The notes under the pieces are model-generated. The model was not told the DNA's origin, made no database searches, and saw nothing but the letters and a program-made list of their open reading frames with translations. A stretch of DNA of 64,000 nt from Crambe crambe (taxonomy: Eukaryota; Porifera; Demospongiae; Poecilosclerida; Crambeidae). Position numbers and translations under genes: made by a program. The stretch covers positions 5,084,001 through 5,148,000 of the forward strand of contig OZ004589.1 in NCBI GenBank assembly GCA_963924555.1. Direction: 5' to 3'. How positions within the stretch are numbered: the stretch's first letter is position 1; each line of letters starts with the position of its first letter. Positions 6,501 through 64,000 of this stretch are shown here, piece after piece.

Positions 6501-9500
6501 TTGTATACACCCTCATCTTGTCACTCATTTAAGTAATTATAGGGCTGTTTTTTGTTTGTTTATTTTTTCTTACTGATTTTTCATACTATAGGACTTGATG
6601 ATAGTGCAGTCAATGAAGAATTAGCTCATGCTTTCAATGTCTCCCCACCATTCAGACTGGAGAAGTTCACCTACAGCAATCACAAGTTGATGGATATAAT
6701 GCTCCAACACCTGAGTAATACTTCCTTTAATGGAATAACTGTAAGTTTCATAACCTGATTCCAATGAAGGCTCTATATGCATTATATGAACTGTTGATAT
6801 TTTGCACACATAGCTATTATGGTACACTATGGACACCAAGCCTATATAGAGTTATATGTGCTTCAGGCTTGAGGGTTTATAAGTAAGACAATTAATCCAT
6901 GCAGCCATGCTAGGTAGCAGGTTAAATTGATAAGCCAAACAGACCCTCCCAGAGGCTTGGACAACCTCTGTAAAATGAACAACCATCAAAGCACCAAATT
7001 GAACTTACCATAGAACAAGTGTATTTAAAAATGGACACCGGAAAACGGATACTGTTTGATGTCGATGTCCAAAGAAACACACATCCATAATCACTTGCTA
7101 ACCGAGCATGTGAGTGACATAATGCTAAATCTTCTTAGAGGCAGATGAACATTTGGACATTATAGGCCTCATAGAGATAGCTAGTGGCTAACACCTGCTG
7201 GAAAAGCAAAATAACCTCTTCTTCACCGAGTTTTAAGGAAAGCACATACAATTGACTACTTTCTAAGCGATGAATTATAATTTATTATATCAGACCTGCC
7301 ATGGACATGCCATGGACACAGAACAGCCTCCAAAGGTGTTTCCCCCAAGTGTCCTTTATTTGGAGGTTCTATTGTAAACCTTTGACATGTACTGATTTAA
7401 TTTAATTAACTGTCCCCATTGCCAAATAATAAGTGTAGCTTGCTACATGTGTCTAGCTAGTAGCCTGAAAACTAAGTATAATATTATCCTTGGGTTTATA
7501 CTAGCTAATGTTGCCATGCATGCAGGGTCCAGTGAGTTTCGGGGAGCAAGGGATCAGAAACCTTAATAACGACACCATTTTACAGTTTAAAAGAAGAAGA
7601 AGTGGTAAGTTATGTTGCTGTCAGAATTTAGCCCAGCCATAATTATGATTCTGAAATTAACTTTTTCATTTTAGTCACTGATGGAAGCACTTACCTTGAC
7701 TTGGTGGAGATAGGGAAGGTCAATGAAAGCTTTCACTTCAGTTATGTAGCAGGGGAGAGTTTAAATACAGTGTGGCAAGGTACATATTGCTTAGCATTAA
7801 TAGTGTCTAGCTAGCTTGGTATAATTCTCTATCTCATAAGAGCTCAATTTTCATTTTTGATATGCTCTTGAGAGTAGTTAATTGTAAACAGATGTATAGG
7901 GAAAAAGGTAAAGAAACAAGGGCCATGGAATGATAAGCAGATAACAGCTTGATGAAAGGACAACTTCAATTCTTAGTTCGGCACATTGATTTAGTAATCC
8001 CTCACAGTTTATTGGATACTCATTACTCATATTATTTTCAATGCAATTAACAATTTATTAGCTAGTTTTTTTTATTGTTTTTAATTCAGGAGGAATAATT
8101 CCTTATGATGGTGTGCCAAGGGAGGAGATAGTGACAGTGCATCCAGCCCTTCCTGCTGTCTACGTAACTTTGAGTTGTGTTGGCATTGCATTTGCTATAG
8201 CATGTCTCATTTTCAACTTTGTGTATCGCAATGCAAAGTACGTATGTATAGATACTATCTACATATGTATACAGTACATAATAGCTATAATTATATGGTG
8301 TTGGAGCTGGACAGAACAGGTTCATGCGGTACTAGCTATAGGTCAAGTGTCATGAGAGCATGCTTATTGGACACATGTAGCTCCTCTATAACATGGAAAG
8401 TGATAAAGCTTCGTCACAAGCTCTAAACAGTCATGGCATTGACTGCACTACAGTACACAGCGGTTAGCTAACAGTATTAATTTTTCCATGTTGGAAATCT
8501 TCTAGCTTGGCAAAGCTTGTGCTAGATATGACAAGTGCACCTCTTTATTATGATTTGGGAAGTATTTGTTTTACGAAAAAAGAAAAAATCTGTCAGCATA
8601 TTTTCTGCTTAAGGTTATAGCTATTAAACATTAACATGGCTATAACAAGTATGAAGATATTCCACATGAAAAAATATATAAAGTGAATTAGCTATATGTA
8701 CTTTTATAGGTTGATCAAGATAGCTAGCACTAAGCTGAACTACCTGATAGGAATAGGAGCTATCATCCTCTATCTGAACATCATCTTCTTTGTAATTCCC
8801 ACCACTTCTCCTGATGTGGTGAATGGTTTCTGTAACCTGACCCCATGGCTGACAGCCATAGGCTACTCCCTCTGCTATGGCACCATCCTAGCCAAGATGG
8901 CAAGGGTCTACTACATATTCAGTAATCCGTCCACAAAAAAGAAGGTTATTCTATTAATGGATTCTAAGGTTTAAATTTTTTGTTTGACATTATGACATAA
9001 TATATCAGAACTGTATAATTATCTGTAGAATCAAAGTTGTTGAATTGCGGAATGAAGCTACTGGACACAGGTTTAACTACTGGTGTTCATTATACTTTTA
9101 TAGGTTATGAAGGACAAGTTTCTGATGCTAGGCGTGGCAGTCTTGGTGAACATAGATCTGATCATCCTGGTCACATATACTCTTACAGAAGGTATTCGAG
9201 GAAAATTGGTCGCAAAGAGAGTCCCGCATGTACAGATGCCTACAACAGTTGAAGGGGTAAGCATGAATGAAAAAAAGATACATACATGCATGAAACTCTG
9301 AAAAAGGGTCACTTTACAGGATTAATAAAGACTACCCACTTCATTTTCTATAGAGGTGAACGTTATATCTAAGTGAGAATGAAAATAATTAACTGTCCAA
9401 TGTTTATGTTGTCCTCTTCCATTGGGTCCTTTATAGGGAATTTTACTGCCAATTATTATTAAATGTGTTTATTCTTCATTTCAGGAACTTGGAATCATCA

Positions 9501-54098: not shown

Positions 54099-56282
54099 GG
54101 TTTATGAGTGTTAGCTTTGAAGTCTTTGCTTTCATGTTTATTATTCAGTTATCTATTTAAAATGATTCTATACATATGATCATCCCCTTGACTAGCTATA
54201 CCAAAAATGCCAAGCCAAGGCTACACACATGTTGACATATACTCCTACAGTCAGTTATCTGAATTACTTTTTGTCCAAACTTTTTTTCCTGTCAATATGT
54301 GTTGTTGTTGTATAGTAATACAGTACTAACAGCCTAGAATATACTGATTATTGTTATGCTGTTGTTGATAATTATGTGCCTGTGCAAAGCACTCTAAAAA
54401 AAATCTCAAATAATTGATCAAAGCCAGATATTATGATCATGAGTTACTTACCTCGTGCTGGAACACAGTCAATGGCAATTGCATGGATATATAGCTATTT
54501 CCAGCCCTAACCCTAGGAATTAACTGTAGCTGTATTCATCTTTCACCTGCTAATATCTTATAGGCAGCTAGCATGCATTGCCACTAGCTATAATTATGTT
54601 GTCTCAGTGCTGTGTACAAGAGACTGACCACAATGTACTGTATGTCTGATAATGTCAAGTGTGACCAGTTGACTACAAAATGCCATAGCTGCAGTAAACT
54701 TACAGTAGTACGTGTTATACAACTGGTTATCCTCACCTCTTATATCCAGAACCTCCTTTAGCTATCTGGATTTGGAAATACAAGCATTTGTAATGGATTT
54801 TAGCATATCTATGAAGAGATAATGATAATATGGGCAGTACTCTCACACTGCACCTACTACAGTATAGCCTGGTTAATGAGACTATAATTATGTAACAGTA
54901 AAATTAATATAGAACATTGAACGCTGAAAAAAATTTCTGAACCAGCTATGGTTGAAATAGTTGAAATGGTTGAAATGGTTGAAAATTTTATTCAATTCAA
55001 CAAAACTGAACTCATTATATTGACAAATAATTAGCTATAGTCAACATGTATGAAAAAAAAATGCTCTAATCAGAGAGTGCGATAGGACAGTATAAACTAA
55101 AAACTCTTCTTTCTCTTCTACCCTTACTCTACAGGTTCTCAGAAGGCTACAGTGAATTATTATATCTACAAAGAAGAGAGGAGAATGTTCAAAAGCCAAA
55201 AATTCATTCGCCAACATAAGAAAAAAACGAGTTCTAAAATTGACTTTTCGTTCTTTTTCTTTAGCTATAATTAGTGATACCGGATGCTATGGTGGGCGGG
55301 GTCAATTTTTTATACGTAAAAATAATACTGCAGGACGGCACCAAAAGTGACCAAGATATAACCTGGCTGCGAAGGTCCAGATCCAAAGAAATCCAGGAAA
55401 AAAACATATCAACAGAATCCTAATATTCTAGAGAATCTAACTGTGACAGTTTCTTTTAGATAGAGTGCTAAATTTAGATTTGATGTTCAAAAACATATTT
55501 AAATTTCGATTTTCTTATGATATAACACTTGAACAGGTCATGAAACCATATTTTTTGGAAACTGCATCAAAAAATGATCCTGGTACCTTGGATAACTTCT
55601 TGTATCAAGCGGAAAAGAAGGCACGCAAGAAGGATAAGGCATTCAACTTATATAACTGATGGGTCAAAGTTCATGACCTCAACCCTTTCCCACTAAATTT
55701 GAATCTGTGCTGCCTCAGGTGAATAGCCTAACCCCCCTCACCCCCATAGTACATATTTTAATGTAAAATAAAAGTGATGAAAAATGCTTGAATTCTGAAT
55801 CAATCTCTGAACAACATAAATCAGTTCTGGCTGTGGAGTAATGCTGCAGTCTGTTCCTTAATAACAGCAAAGCTCCCAGATCCTGTACATGACTTTGAAC
55901 ATCAATCACTGTCCACTGCAAAGCTTGGCAGCATAAATTGCAGACTTAATGCCACAAATTCTAAAATATAGCAAAGCCGTAATACAGTAAATTTGAAATG
56001 AGCAATCAAAAACACGTTTTACATGGGGAGGGTAGGTCTACTGAAGTTCCTAACTTTGTTAATGTTGTGTACATTCAAAATAGAGACAGACTCTAGGACA
56101 ACAATTGTACAACAGTTCCTACTAGTCTGGTGTTATCCAGACTACATGGCCTATTTTTTTAAATTTACCCTTAGTTCTATAGTCATTTTCTTACTCTTCC
56201 ATATGAACTTTGTTTGAAGAAAATCCATCTAGTAGATCCTAAGATACGAGCAAAAGATTACAGTACTATTAGCCATAATGAC
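54099..56282. other. Gene-poor region
   Basis: No gene recognised. A segment at about 54340-54430 (GTGCCTGTGCAAAGCACTCT) is an inverse copy of one at about 47575-47660 inside the nested hAT-like element, and ACAAGCATTTGTAATGGATT recurs at 54780 and 47557, so scattered repeat pieces are present. The frame at 55465-55659 shows no known domain. Confidence 0.45.
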
Positions 56283-56290
56283 CTTTAACC

Positions 56291-58442
56291 TTAGATAATT
56301 AGACTACGTACACAGGATTGGAAACAGCTCACGTGCGCCCATTATGCTAATACAAATCGTCGCGGACGATCCGTGTTGCTATGCGCGAAGGAAAATTGGA
56401 AATTTATTCCTTGTTTCTCGAGTATACTTTTCATGAAAGGAGAATAAACTGGTGAGTTTTAGCATCAAATAAAGGGCTACTTTACAGAGTATGTTCCAGG
56501 GATGTGAAATGTGTTTCTTAAGTATAGTTAGTTTGCTCATAAAACAGTTTTCCACGAAGATTTTTATCACCCTAGCAACGGATAAAGTTTTTTCTTCTTT
56601 CATTGCAAAGGCATAATTCCTGTGTCCTTTTAATGAAGTTTATGTTATTGAGTGATGCTTGCCATACGGAATGGTGTGCATAATATATGTTTTTGTCCTG
56701 AATCTTTGGCTTTTTCTGTGTTTGGAGGTGTATATTTTTGCTTTCTTTCACACAAAAGGCACTGTTGCATGAGCAATGAAATTTTGCTAACTGATAAAGT
56801 TAGTGCTGCAGTTTGGAATAGCATCAATCCCATGAGCTGCAGTGACCAAAATTATAGCTAATGTATACATGCTAACTTATCCACATTAATTTATTACTAT
56901 ATAATAGTTACAGCTATGCCAAGGAGGAAAAAAAGCAAACTGTGTGTCAAAAAACATGGAAGTAAGAATATTCTCAAGGTGCCATTATCTTCAAGTCCTG
57001 CTTCTAGTATCAGTGATCTTTCAATCACCCTGGACAGACTTCCATCTAAATGGGTCAGATTGAAAGAGCCCAACCTCACCTTGGTGAAACTCTCAAAATG
57101 CCCAAATTCCACAGCAGTTTGTTCACTCTTTAGTGTTACCATATCATCAAAATTAAGCTAGTATATCAGCAGTAGAAGCTTTATAATTATAAAATTATAA
57201 TACCTACATAATAATTAATTTTATGATAAACTATTGAGGGTCTTAGTAGTCTTCCTTATGCCCTTGGTTTTCTGGGTCAATTTCTTAGCTACTTGCCATT
57301 TTGAGCTAGCAAAAGCAAAGCCTCGTGTGGTGATCCAAAGGTCCACTATCATTTTAATCACCTTGCTCTCCTCTTCATCCCAATCCTCAGAAATTTCAGA
57401 CTATTTTTGTACATTCCTTCTTTAATACTTTTCTTAATGTTATCAATGGGCTTTATCAAATGATTCTGAACTTCTTTCTCCATCTCCACCATGAAACTAT
57501 ACATGGAGTTTAAAATGTGGAGTAATCTCCTATCGACCAAGTCTATATCCAATCCTCTGATTCTTCATCGTCATCATAGTAACAAATCATCAATATAACA
57601 TCAAATTTTCTTTCAAGGGTGAGAGGAACTTTTTAATCTCTTGTGCAGAACCCTTGGGATGTACCCTGCTGCATACCGCAATGCATTACTCTCTTCGTAA
57701 GTAATTACACACTCATAATCATGCTGGGAGGCGGAGCTGAGGTCACTTGAAATAGGGCAGTTATTAGGAATTACTCGTTCAAATAGCTAACACATCTGTA
57801 ATTTTCTAGTACAGGAGGGGTGATTGCTATACCAGCTTGATAAAAAAAGTCTTTTCAGATTTTCTGAAACTCTGTGGTGGTTCTGATTTTATGGTACTGC
57901 CCCCACATAATTCGTTGTGTTTTCTCTAAGGGATGAGGGTCAAGTAATTTTATTAGAAGTGATTCAACATTTCATAGCTTGAAGGATTTGTGCACCACTC
58001 AAGAGCTGCAGTAGCAATTTCTTGAACAGCAATATTGTGTGGACGAGAGAACATCTTAGTCTTCACAATTTGTTGCAAAACTTGGACAATAATTCCACTA
58101 GGATCTATAGTTAAAGCAATTAATTAAGCTCAATGAAGTGGTCATGTAAGCTTCAGTTAATAGCTAGCTAGCTAGGTCTCTAGCACTGTAAATTAGCAGT
58201 AGCCAGCTAGCTGATAGAGCTAGCTACGTAGATCATAGCTAGGTCTCTTAGCACTGGCTAGCCAATAACAACACAATTTACCTTGTAAATCAGGTTTTCT
58301 CCAGCTATACAAGCACTAACAAGCCACACACTTAGAGAAACAAACCACACACTGTAAACAGCTGCAATGATTTGGCGCAACGCGCATGGTCCGCGCGCGA
58401 ATAATTGCTTCCAATCCTGTGTACGTAGTCTAATTATCTAAG
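56291..58442. mobile_element. DNA transposon with 8-bp target duplication, family unknown
   Basis: Terminal inverted repeats of about 33 bases (TTAGATAATTAGACTACG, then TACACAGGATTGGAA) lie at both ends, and CTTTAACC flanks both sides (56283-56290 and 58443-58450). The interior, 2.15 kb, carries short frames only: 56652-56861 (+), 56916-57161 (+, basic start MPRRKKSK) and 57552-57358 (-). None has a recognisable transposase domain. An 8-bp duplication fits hAT, P or Merlin types; the ends do not settle which. Confidence 0.75.
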
Positions 58443-58921
58443 CTTTAACCTACTTTGGAAAGGTGCCGTTTTCTTAATTAAAAGAAAGTAAAATTTTCCT
58501 GTACAATTTCAATTGTAAAATGTTACGTATCTCTGCTTCTACTGGATGGATTTTTATCGGATAAAGTTTATCTGGCTGAGGAAAAAGAGCTTAATATTTT
58601 TAAGAAATGAATTTATAGTTTCATAGTATTTTTAAAAATAGCCCGGTATCACTACTATAATAATAATAATAATAAGATCGACGTACCGATGTCGGAGTGT
58701 AGAATGTCCCCCCGTGCAGAATGTCCCCCCGGACAGTCTACACTAGTGCGGAGAGCCTCCGGGGGACACTCTACACTAGTGTAGAATGTCCTTTCTAGTG
58801 TGAAGTGTCCCACCTCGCCAAGACAAAGGGAAAATCAGAATAGTGTAGAAACCATAGCTAGCTATATAGCCACTAGCTTTATTAATAGCTGGATGCAGAA
58901 AACTTGATATCAGTGTCTAAG

Positions 58922-61900
58922 ATGACTACTATTCTGAATGATTATGAAGCTATATATAATTTTCTTTTCAACCATGTGTATCCTGAGGGCTTCAGCAAAG
59001 TTCAGAAGAGAGCTCTGAGAAGAAAGGCCAGTGATAATTATAAAGTGGATAGGGGACAGTTGTTCTATAAAAAGAGTGGGACCCAGAATTGGAAGCAAGT
59101 CCCTCGAATAAACAGGGAAAGGAGGAGGATATTAGAAACCTGCCATGGACTTCTTGAAGGTATAACTCCATGGCTAACTAGCCATAGCATTGTAATAATT
59201 ATGGACAAAAATCTTTGTTAATAGACTAGCTACAACCAAAATTAATAGTTGCATGAATACATGCAGCTGCAAGCTAAAAAAAATTTTTGGTTGTTTTATG
59301 TAGGTGGCCATCTTGGTCGGGATAAAACTTATTACAAAATTTCTGAGCACTTTTTTGGAAGAGTCTGTGGGCTGATGTTGATGAACACGTCAAAACTTGT
59401 CCAGTATGTCAGACAACAAATGATGCAAAATTTGTAAAACAGGGTGCAGCACTTCACCCTATCCCGGTCAAGCCAAAAGTATGGAGACAGGTATGAAAAT
59501 ATTTAGCACAGCTATAGCTACAGTTGTATACACATGATCAATTGGGTAGCAAAACTCTCTGTGCAGCTACCTTATAAGCTTGTGTTTTGAGACGAATCTT
59601 GCACTCTTTTTCATATAGCTATATATTATAGCTAGCTAGCTACAGCATTCCTAAAGCTTGAGTAGTTTTTTTTTATAGTTTTGATATATTTATCAATTTT
59701 GGTGGACTTGTCCAAAAATTTTAGGTGGGTATTGACTTGATTGGACCCCTTCCTGAAACAAAAGCCGGGAATAAGTACATCATTACTCTAGTGGACTTTT
59801 TTTCTAAATGGCCAGAGGCAGCAGCTCTACCAGATAAGAAGGCTGATGGTGTAGCTCTATTCCTATATCAGATGGTTTGCAGGTACATATTGCTATAATG
59901 GACTAATAGTGCTAATTATAATTACCAACATTAGATATGGCTGTACAAAGATATTGATATCAGACCAGGGCAGAGAGTTTGTAAATGAAGTGAACAAGAC
60001 TCTCTGCAGAAAATTCAAAACAGATCACCGTATCTCTACTGCTTATCATCCGCAAACGAATGGTTTGATTGAAAGATACAACCAAACACTCCAGCGATCT
60101 CTTGTGAAGCTAGTCAACAAGGAACAGAACGACTGGGACAAGTTTATAGATGGTGTGTTGTTTGCTTATAGGACTTCAAAACAGAAATCTACTGATGTGA
60201 CCCCCTTTGAGCTGATGTATTGCAGGTATGTCCTTATCTGGGCATTACTATAGAATAACTATCTGGGTTCATGTCCATGGAAAAAATGAATCATCAAATT
60301 AATATATGACTTGGTTTGGGGGGGGGGGGGGGCATGGCCCCTCCGGCCTTCCTATTCCTACTTGTGTTTTATTGTGTTACCTTCATGCATATAAAAAAAT
60401 AGGAAACCAATTCTTCCAATTGAAAGGGAACTCACTCAGAGCGATGACACTGATACAAGCAATGATGAAGCTAAGCAAAATATTAGTAAATACTGTGATG
60501 ACATGCTGAAACTGAGGAAAGATCTGTTTTCTAAAGCAAACAAAAAAATAAAGGATGCTCAGGGACGCTACAAAAGAGATTATGATAAAAAATACCACCA
60601 TGTGAAGGTGTGTAATAAAAAATAATAACAGTGACATCATGATATGTTTTTCCTGCAGAAACTTTATATAGGTGCACTGGTACTTCTGCGTAATTGTGTA
60701 CGTGATGGGCGAAAGGGTGACAAGCTCACTAAGCGTTGGCTGGGCCCCTACAGAATTAATGAACATATGGGGAAAGGAGTATATCAACTAGAAAATGCTT
60801 CCAGTGGTAAAATTCTAAAGAAGGCATTTAATTCATGCAGGTAAGGTATCATGTTATAAGGATGCATTTCAATATAACTGTAAAAGACACATGCAGCCCT
60901 TAATTTTGTTTTTGTATTTGTTGTAGATTGAAGTTATATTACCCACGTCCTTTATTGAAGCCAATACTACAAAATAATAGCGACATTTTTCAACTTCATT
61001 CATCCGACTCTTCAAATGAGAATACACTGGTGACAACACCACAGATACCAGCTAATTCTTTCTCTGATGACTCCATTCCTCCACTTCCACCTCCACTATC
61101 TCCCCTAAATCCTCCCTCATGTGTTACCAAGAAGCAGTTAATATTACATGACTCATTCTATGATGATACCAATGGTGACCTAATATATACGTATATATAG
61201 CTAATAATTATCATAGCTAATTTATAACTTTTAATATAGCTCCAGGAAGCAATACCATGCCTATTCCAGAAGCTACTCCTCAACATTCACCTCCAATGCC
61301 CCTAGCTCTTTAAAGCTGTTGAAAATTAATCAAGGAGCTGTGATGACAGGAATATTAATGGTTAGTTTACATGCATGATTTCATTCTAAATTTAACATGG
61401 CAACTTTGCACAGATCTTAGTTCACAAGTTTGGGATAATAAAGCAGACCAACAGGATTCCTAACAAGTAGTCCTAAACACACAGAAAGATTTCCTCAAGA
61501 TTTTGTTCTTTTTTTCTGACAAAGAACCTTCAGCTATCATGGAAACAAATGAGTGTCAGAAACAAGGTAAATAAGATAAAGCCATGCATTCATGCATGTA
61601 TCCCTGCATATTTTGATTTCATAGCTATGGTGATCAACAAGTAACAAGCTGTATCCCCTGTGCTTCAACAACTTAATAAAGATGAATTGCTATCTTTAGT
61701 TTCAGAGCAATTGGACAGAATGAATAATTTGAAGGTTGGCACTAGTATTTTTAGTAATCAGATAGCTAATTTAGTTATATGTTTTTATAGCCTTCTGAGA
61801 AGGAGTACAATAACTATTCATGTAAAAGACGCAGTGAGTTGTTATTACCTAGCTATAGCTATTGCAATGCTGGAAATTAGCTATATTTATTATTATTTTG

Positions 61901-63358
61901 TAGATGAACTTAAACATTTGAGCAATTCTATAACCTGCCTCACAAGCCACCAGTATCATGTTGTCACTGAATATATTGTGTCCAAAGTTTGTGCCAAGAA
62001 TATAAAGGTATTTGCAACCGTTACGGCATGTATATATATATAGTTTCTAGTCCACTGATTATCATTATTTCTTAGCATTTCTCATTTGCCATAGATGTTA
62101 TACATCCCAAAATATTGCAAAACATCGTTATAAATGTACAAGTGATGAGGTATGGTATAATAATCTATCATAGACATAATAGCTAGCTAATAATTAATTA
62201 ATTTTTGATGCACATGCACAAGAGAAAAGAAGAGCCTGAACTTCACATACAATCAGGTTATTAATAGCTAATAACTGTGTGAACTACATAATAATATTAT
62301 TATTGTTATAGGCATATTACATTCTAGTGTCTATGAGTATGTAAAAAAGAAAAGAAAGCTACACACAGGTATCTGTACAAAGGCTTAGCCATTGATTTAG
62401 TTAGCTATTCAATGAATGATATGTACACAGCATGAACACACCCAGCCCCTTGGTCATTCACTATAACTGCTATTTGAAATTTGAAGAATCTAGAAAGTTA
62501 TAGCAGTTATAGTAAATGATTAAGGGGCAAGGTGAATGCAAATGGACTTTAGCTACACTTCATGCAAGCTATGCTATTTTTTGCTTCATTATAGACTTAG
62601 CCGAGGAAGAAGTAGCTATCATCTACAGAGAATGAATAAAGTCCACTATATTGTCTGATTCCATTGTCACTGCTGCACAATGCTTATTAAAGGAGAAATA
62701 TAAGCATGTTGGAGGTTTAGAGCCTATTATGACACGTACATTCGATATTCAGAGGGGTAACTTTATTCAGATTCTGAACGTATATGGTTCTCACTGGATC
62801 ACTGTAGCGAATGGCTGTTCTTCTGGTTCAGTTAATGTTTATGACAGTCTGCCAAATTATGCACTCTACAGTCATACGAAGAAGCAACTTGCTTCCATCC
62901 TCTGCAGCAAAGACAAAAAAATATCTGTTAATTTCATTGATGTCCAAACCCAGAGCAGTGGTAATGACTGTGGTCTGTTTTCTATAGCATTTGCAGCTTC
63001 ACTTTGTGCAGGTGAGCCTGAGTTTCTTGCCAGTATTTCATTGATCTTTTACTTGGCATGTGTAGGTGAGAATCCATCTGAGCTGCACTACATTCAACAT
63101 GACTTCCGCAACCATTTATTCAAGTGCCTAGAAGCTAATCTGGTTACTCCATTTCCCCGAAGAAATCGGAAAAGAAAGGGTGGGAATCGTGGCCAAACCA
63201 GTTTTGGAATTTTTTGTACTTGTAGGCTGCCTGCATATGGTAAAATGATATCGTGTAGTTCTTGCCACGAGTGGTTTCACCGAAAATGTGTTGTAGCACC
63301 AACTGAAGTATGGAGAAGGAAGGAAGTAGATTGGTACTGTAATTCATGTATAAAATAG
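58922..63358 (+). pseudogene. Ginger1-like transposase: integrase, Ulp1 protease, PHD finger
   Basis: Likely exons: 58922..59159, 59304..59490, 59725..59882, 59935..60225, 60403..60607, 60659..60840, 60927..61174, several short exons from about 61245 to 62590, then 62600..63011 and 63066..63358. Domains in order: the YPEGF region, an HHCC zinc finger (CHGLLEG-GHLGRD to TCPVCQ), a DDE core with D in GIDLIGP, D in ISDQGREF and E in GLIERYN, the GPY/F motif (RWLGPYRI), a proline-rich linker, a Ulp1/C48 cysteine protease (His in GSHWI, Asp in VYDSL, Cys in GNDCGLF) and a PHD finger (CTCRLPAYGKMISCSSC to WYCNSC). Breaks: a frame change in the T-run at about 59352 and an in-frame TGA just before the Ulp1 part (near 62632). 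Known Ginger1 transposases carry OTU or Ulp1 domains; the PHD finger here is additional in my reading. Confidence 0.78.
62444..62527. repeat. Small hairpin inside the Ginger1-like gene
   Basis: CCCCTTGGTCATTCACTATAACTGCT at the left pairs with AGCAGTTATAGTAAATGATTAAGGGG at the right with few mismatches. It lies in an intron between the linker and the Ulp1 part. The arms are given in pieces no longer than the core words CACTATAACTGCT and AGCAGTTATAG. Confidence 0.6.
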
Positions 63359-63913
63359 CTAAAGCTATTCCAATCAATGTACACATTATCACTACTAAAA
63401 TATTTGCTGTAGCCAAGTTTCATAACAGTGGCAGAGACCTACTGTATTGATATTTTTTAAATGAACAACAATTTTTTTCCAAGTCAAACAGCAGCTATAG
63501 CTAGCTAGTTATAACATGCATGAAACATGGTCATGCAGACTTCTTATTGGCTAGCTGAATCTTAGAGGACACTCAGATTGCATGACTAAAATTCAGGATA
63601 TATTTAGGCATTCTAGCTACTGTAAGACTGTTCATAGTGGTAACAGGGAATCACTGCATCTCTGAAACAAGCTCTATTGTCAGAGGAGCCATAGCCCCTA
63701 GCTCTACTGATGCCTCTTTGCATCCTTTTATTTCTACTTTTTAAAAAAAGGGGGGAAAGCTTTACACTAAGAGGGGAGCTAGTTCAAGAATGAAGAGTGT
63801 AAAAATCAAGTCCAGCCATAAGGTAGCTCATAAGTTATCACACTAGCTGATAATAAGTATGATAGATTTAACAAAAGGATTGTTGGATAGCTATTCCATG
63901 AAGATAACAGTAG
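63359..63913. other. Sequence downstream of the PHD stop
   Basis: No gene recognised. It probably still belongs to the transposon or to an adjacent degraded copy. Short purine-rich runs occur near 63745. Confidence 0.4.
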
Positions 63914-64000
63914 CTACTGATTCCATTGTCACTGCTGCACAATGGAGGTTCCGAGCCTATGTATTATGACATACAGTCATATGAAGAAGTACCTTGCTTC
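63914..64000 (+). pseudogene. Deleted partial copy of the Ulp1 exon
   Basis: CTGATTCCATTGTCACTGCT and GCACAATG match 62659-62687; the sequence then jumps to a match near 62712 (GAGCCTATTATGAC type), then to one near 62870 (CAGTCATA, GAAGAAG, CTTGCTTC). At least two internal deletions separate the matched pieces. This is a second, non-coding derivative of the neighbouring element. Confidence 0.75.

Follow-up and report, generated by a model that had tools for sequence, protein, structure and literature searches.

Near the right-hand end of the 64,000-bp stretch of Crambe crambe DNA analysed here (contig OZ004589.1; hereafter the window) lies a 5,940-bp repeated element, the window copy (L009), which runs on the forward strand from position 58690 to 64629, its 3′ end falling 629 bp past the window. 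Its coding blocks, all on that strand, follow the order YPYY, H2C2 zinc finger, DD35E core, GPY/F, linker, Ulp1 protease and PHD finger, and both motifs and order are kept in five sibling loci (L028–L032). We regard it, with a probability of roughly 0.9, as a cut-and-paste DNA transposon of the Ginger1 group that has decayed in this copy. Its features, in window coordinates, are as follows:

58686–58689, no strand: left target duplication, CCGA; the same four bases stand at 64630–64633, past the right end
58690–64000, plus strand, continuing to 64629 outside the window: the element assigned to Ginger1, from copy comparison and end reading
58690–58825, plus strand: imperfect terminal inverted repeat of the 5′ end, about 136 bp; its 3′ partner is outside the window
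58922–59159, plus strand: predicted exon 1, with ATG and YPYY-like motif (reading frames, siblings; start taken from the ATG)
59304–59490, plus strand: predicted exon 2, which encodes the H2C2 zinc finger and carries a frameshift near 59350 (Pfam, copy comparison)
59725–59882, plus strand: predicted exon 3, first catalytic Asp at 59734 (Pfam, siblings)
59935–60225, plus strand: predicted exon 4, second Asp at 59963 and Glu at 60071, DD35E spacing (Pfam, siblings)
60403–60607, plus strand: predicted exon 5, between core and GPY/F (siblings)
60659–60840, plus strand: predicted exon 6, GPY/F, with GPY at 60743–60751 (Pfam, siblings)
60927–62143, plus strand: linker exons with uncertain borders, parts conserved in two siblings
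62636–63163, plus strand: Ulp1 (C48) protease domain, N-terminal part missing (Pfam, sibling alignments)
63164–63358, plus strand: PHD finger (C4HC3) and stop codon (Pfam, structure-relative search)
63917–63944, plus strand: second, partial copy of the Ulp1 start, 3′ of the PHD stop (a 28-mer present twice)

The borders of the element are known because similarity among copies ends there, the ends are inverted and four identical bases flank them. As the original prediction had proposed as a check, copies, both terminal repeats and the 4-bp duplication were sought, and 19 genomic places holding full or partial copies were fetched and compared. Four of these (L020, L024, L025 and L027) could not be read at both ends; among the 15 remaining, 14 are flanked by equal 4-bp target duplications. 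The duplicated bases are CCGG in 11 copies, CCGA in the window copy, and ACGG and CCGT in one other copy apiece. The terminal inverted repeats start 5′-TGTCG and align at 75% identity across 121 columns, with a local alignment score of 120 compared with a maximum of 44 among 200 shuffles, and the 5′ repeat is internally composed of small repeats. The outermost 22 bases of the 5′ end were found 29 times genome-wide when up to two mismatches were allowed, 19 of them exact, while the reversed pattern used as a control gave 0; the element is multi-copy with exact ends. The original prediction had placed it at 58690–63358, which is exact at the 5′ end, but 63358 is the end of the PHD frame. These ends also bear on whether the sequence might instead be a fragment of a Gypsy long terminal repeat retrotransposon, as could be suspected from the Gypsy type of its integrase and from the many long-frame Gypsy-like loci that match the same query. 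Judged by its ends and repeats, that origin is highly improbable, since the ends are inverted rather than direct repeats and CCGG-type 4-bp duplications flank them; the longest direct repeat in 56000–64000 is 34 bases, and no long direct repeat links the two ends within the 9-kb locus that holds the entire copy.

The target of several insertions could be recognized as a dispersed repeat, which adjoins the element at 58660–58689 of the window and again past 64629. By eye, the window copy, L017 and L018 are inserted at one identical position of this repeat, and L023 apparently at that same position in the opposite orientation. A genome search for the site in its unoccupied form, AAGATCGACGTACCGRCTTACTGGCTAT, allowing 0 to 4 additional bases, found it exactly 521 times (270 + 251), as against 0 for the reversed pattern. 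An unoccupied copy of the repeat, L033, aligns with the right flank at 95% across 154 columns; on the left, the agreement covers the last 33 of 200 flanking bases, at 94%. That the window copy has a CCGA duplication, which falls outside the published Ginger1 set, can be accounted for because the unoccupied site exists in a CCGA form; the CCGA and CCGG forms (CCGR) are both among the matches listed. Two further copies, L011 and L012, have a common 3′ flank and may not be independent.

As defined by Bao, Kapitonov and Jurka (2010; PMC2836005), Ginger1 transposons have a 4-bp duplication of CCGG or CCGT/ACGG, inverted ends of about 40–270 bp with a TGTNR start, and a protein in which a YPYY motif precedes the zinc finger of a Gypsy-type integrase with H2C2 and DDE parts and GPY/F, followed at the C-terminus by Ulp1 or OTU and, in one family, PHD. 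The window family shares the duplication, the inverted ends, H2C2/DDE, GPY/F, YPYY and the C-terminal Ulp1 and PHD, so that the assignment to Ginger1 made in the original prediction is backed by terminal repeats, target duplications and protein motifs alike.

With respect to the integrase, exons 1 to 6 of the window copy are each preceded by AG and followed by GT, save for the start of exon 1. The YPYY motif, identified by eye following the published definition, is seen as YP...NY...FY in exon 1, ahead of the zinc finger, and is somewhat varied in the siblings. In Pfam scans, Integrase_H2C2 was matched by one half of the H2C2 exon at 25.9 bits (cut-off 25.5, E 1.1e-05), and the short coding blocks of the window copy gave matches below cut-off for two rve pieces (18.0 bits each versus 32.6; E 0.0037 and 0.0034) and for SH3_Tf2-1 (26.1 bits versus 30, E 9.2e-06). 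The rve match of sibling L031 reaches E 1e-07, 0.1 bit below the cut-off, and GPY/F reads WLGPY in the window copy and WxGPY in all five siblings. A search of a phage collection with the DDE exon matched nothing at E 1e-5. With L014 as the reference, variants were counted among 14 to 17 copies, L027 being left out; the ratios were 0.50 for the integrase exons and 1.11 for the linker. The element had been credited with a complete integrase, and H2C2, DD35E and GPY/F are indeed present in order, but the H2C2 exon is split near 59350; it is spread over two frames in four of the 19 copies (the window copy, L019, L021 and L027) and kept in one frame in the other 15. The window copy probably makes no full-length protein.

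Downstream of the linker, the window copy matches Peptidase_C48 (22.9 bits, cut-off 20.7, E 8.7e-05) and PHD (32.8 bits, cut-off 24, E 7.2e-08), the latter in agreement with the PHD finger of the original prediction. The prediction that all catalytic residues of a SUMO-protease-like domain are visible holds for His (62792), Asp (62843), Cys (62969) and a Gln at 62951, but about 200 bp of the start of the domain are gone. This Gln, invariant in the sibling alignment, stands six residues ahead of the Cys, a spacing that we take from yeast Ulp1. A profile built from the Ulp1 domains of four siblings retrieved, among solved structures, an Ulp1-like SUMO protease (E 2.6e-06) and SENP1 (E 0.00017 and weaker), whereas a phmmer search of the same structures with the truncated window domain gave only weak matches (E 0.47 and worse, to ribosomal protein L15). 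The nearest structures are SUMO proteases and SENP8, a NEDD8 protease, which makes it rather improbable that the protease cuts the transposase itself in a self-processing step instead of acting on SUMO, as its apparent presence in one chain with the integrase might suggest. We discounted a YopJ-type Pfam match (25.7 bits, cut-off 24.4), which spans the protease core and in L014 scores 20.9, below cut-off; YopJ-type and Ulp1-type protease folds are related. Within the 240-aa Ulp1–PHD frame, a stop-free 54-bp stretch bounded by GT and AG (63012–63065) encodes 18 residues absent from eight sibling proteins, and is probably an in-frame intron.

The PHD finger of the window copy has as its closest solved relatives Spp1, Pps (Protein partner of snf), DIDO1, PHF2, PHF8 and ING proteins, and matches of a PHD–Ulp1 sibling profile are likewise led by PHD fingers, namely those of PHF2, EBS, ING2, a SHORT LIFE family protein, DIDO1 and Spp1. 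Many of the proteins in such lists read histone H3 di- or trimethylated at lysine 4 (H3K4me2/3). Cage-like residues, located by eye at positions presumably equivalent to those of ING2, comprise an aromatic residue before the first Cys in 10 of 10 loci, a Met in 10 of 10 and a Trp in nine, with Lys replacing the Trp in L031; one of the ten, L028, lacks the first Cys and is close kin of L029, and so is not independent. At the level of sequence, the finger resembles H3K4me3 readers. Its variants (2 synonymous, 4 nonsynonymous, ratio 0.51) are too few, at six, to be informative.

The loss of about 200 bp at about position 62654, at the start of Ulp1, is common to six of the 19 copies: the window copy, L011 and L012 in a seven-copy alignment, and L010, L013 and L024 in unbroken alignments to the window copy. 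The stretch, which is retained in L014, L016, L017 and L018, includes the acceptor of the last intron and a conserved WLTD segment. Ulp1/SENP proteases carry a WLxD segment in their N-terminal part besides His-Asp-Gln-Cys; in this segment, all four proteins compared (L014 and three siblings) have the W and the D, and its position is covered in the SENP matches. Other damage to Ulp1 consists of a different deletion in L019 and absence of the domain from L025 and L026, and a 28-mer of the Ulp1 start occurs twice (at up to three mismatches) in 15 of the 19 copies, including the old copy L027. In the integrase region, compared for 17 of the 19 copies, five of the six deletion carriers are 0.2–0.8% apart, and they likely, although not firmly, represent a Ulp1-truncated subfamily that spread. 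The distances between carriers and some full copies are almost as small (0.5% between L010 and L017), and L024 is a little nearer to several full copies than to other carriers; alternatively, the deletion could have spread through sequence exchange between copies.

The association of Ulp1–PHD with the integrase was evaluated both within the window family and across the genome. Pieces of Ulp1 and PHD are found in 16 of the 19 copies (L025 and L026 lack both, and L020 lacks PHD), and lie between both read ends in 14 of 15. Sibling L028 likewise has integrase and Ulp1–PHD between inverted ends that resemble those of the window copy, and in two siblings similarity at the DNA level is mostly limited to coding blocks and termini. 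Genome matches numbered at least 166 for the Ulp1–PHD query and at least 151 for the DDE exon, and linkage was counted for the 150 of each that were listed, requiring Ulp1–PHD downstream of the integrase on the same strand within 8 kb. This arrangement was found for 46 of the 150 listed integrase matches, all of which belong to the 71 earlier chosen by eye as less Gypsy-like, and another arrangement for 3; conversely, 60 of the 150 listed Ulp1–PHD matches have a listed integrase upstream. A host gene caught beside the integrase, outside the element, would be expected neither inside the ends of so many copies nor after diverged integrases, and for the window family this possibility, to which we give almost no weight, is already refuted by the comparison of copies, ends and domains. 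A separate Ulp1–PHD gene or host gene, the outcome that the original prediction had named as evidence against itself, was accordingly not seen in the window family; genome-wide the picture is less complete, as described below.

In copies with open exons, it is most likely that one spliced gene encodes an integrase-like transposase with a Ulp1–PHD tail. In copy L014, of the 13 pairs of adjacent conserved blocks, 12 could be joined by frame-keeping GT–AG junctions, mostly with more than one solution. That Ulp1–PHD is instead a second gene of the same transposon, with its own promoter and unfused to the integrase, would fit the TGA stop at 62633–62635 directly ahead of the Ulp1 frame of the window copy and the junctions in or after the linker that are not resolved. 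We consider this unlikely, as the linker that leads from GPY/F to Ulp1 is in part conserved at the protein level in siblings L028 and L029, and as PMC2836005 describes a single transposase, some 500 to 800 residues long, that bears such C-terminal domains.

Several observations weigh against this reading of a Ginger1 transposon with one spliced transposase gene that ends in Ulp1–PHD. One of the 13 junctions in L014 could not be solved, and weak sites are used between exons 7 and 8 and at the entry to the Ulp1 exon, so that a single fused protein is not proved. The flanks of L026 are unequal (CCAG and CCGG). Young copies show no sign of purifying selection on Ulp1 (9 synonymous and 31 nonsynonymous variants, ratio 0.96), although these counts are uninformative for that domain, and the apparent spread of Ulp1-truncated copies suggests that Ulp1 need not be supplied in cis. 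Furthermore, 104 of the 150 listed integrase matches have no listed Ulp1–PHD downstream (79 of them mostly Gypsy-like by eye, 25 not), and 90 of the 150 listed Ulp1–PHD matches have no listed integrase upstream. Five of these 90 were opened: L034, L035 and L038 carry pieces of the integrase core upstream on the same strand, L037 has only linker pieces in the 7 kb fetched and L036 only an H2C2 piece, and no stand-alone host Ulp1–PHD gene was seen among the five.

Two structures neighbour the element. Directly upstream, 43-bp inverted repeats (window 56284–56326 and 58406–58448), 93% complementary and 2.1 kb apart, look like the ends of another inverted-end element, and downstream, outside the window, a 449-bp palindrome (65618–66066, or 8119–8567 of the fetched locus L009) is 97% identical to its own reverse complement.

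In terms of mechanism, a Ginger1 transposase of this kind would, by analogy with its family, bind the inverted ends, excise the element by DDE chemistry at those ends and insert it at a staggered target of 4 bp, most often CCGG; the outcome of this last, joining step is evidenced by the duplications and the empty site. Through its PHD the tail might dock on H3K4-methylated open chromatin, and through its Ulp1-type fold it could remove SUMO, or a tag related to it, from proteins of the host or from the transposase at that place. The original prediction had suggested a role in targeting or in SUMO-based silencing, and the likeness of the PHD to H3K4me3 readers is compatible with such a role. A broader proposal is that a diverse Ginger1 lineage of this genome keeps Ulp1 and an H3K4me3-type PHD together with the integrase, which may steer it to active promoters and strip SUMO-based silencing there, as a cut-and-paste parallel to the PHD of RAG2, with the Ulp1-truncated sublineage having spread on the enzyme of other copies; we offer this as speculation that is probably wrong in at least some part. 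The RAG2 PHD finger is itself an H3K4me3 reader that partners a DDE-type recombinase, on a separate protein and without a protease. If the PHD of the window family does read H3K4me3, it would make for a chromatin-reading integrase of a different sort from those of chromodomain retrotransposons.

Comparison with published systems places the element within a known type. In searches that miss most subscription journals, no paper with Ginger1 in sponges in its title was found, and the only Ginger paper found on Ulp1 and PHD transposases was that of 2010; passage searches in two further papers found neither Ulp1 nor PHD beside Ginger1, the main text of PMC12863088 containing neither term and PMC9587614 mentioning Ginger1 once, in a list, and PHD nowhere. 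Table 1 of PMC2836005 includes Ulp1-type Ginger1 elements, as the original prediction had stated, and its entry for Ginger1-9_HM, with ‘Ulp1, PHD’, leaves the claim that the PHD finger makes the present element unusual without support; the legend of Figure 1e describes an alignment of Ulp1 and PHD domains from Ginger1 and Mutator transposases. The authors suggested that the proteases aid transposition, perhaps via repair factors. Compared by description only, Ginger1-9_HM of Hydra magnipapillata resembles the window family in its Gypsy-type integrase, its C-terminal Ulp1 and PHD and its 120-bp terminal inverted repeat, and differs in being 3,758 bp long with 2 introns, as against 5,940 bp and more predicted introns. 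Hydra Ginger1-4 to -8, -10 and -12 share the integrase and Ulp1, but in contrast to the window family no PHD is listed for them in Table 1 of PMC2836005; the OTU-type Ginger1 elements of Hydra, Aplysia and aphid pair the integrase with a C-terminal cysteine protease in which OTU replaces Ulp1, again with no PHD listed there, and the Mutator transposases with Ulp1 have this domain beside a DNA transposase of a different superfamily. Taken together, the window element is a new family of a published type and not a new system. What is added here is the recurrence of Ulp1–PHD in diverged elements of one host, the retention of cage-like residues and the existence of Ulp1-truncated copies. The role of the C-terminal domains becomes testable by comparing elements with and without Ulp1–PHD, and their recurrence in diverged Ginger1-like elements widens the single case described in PMC2836005.

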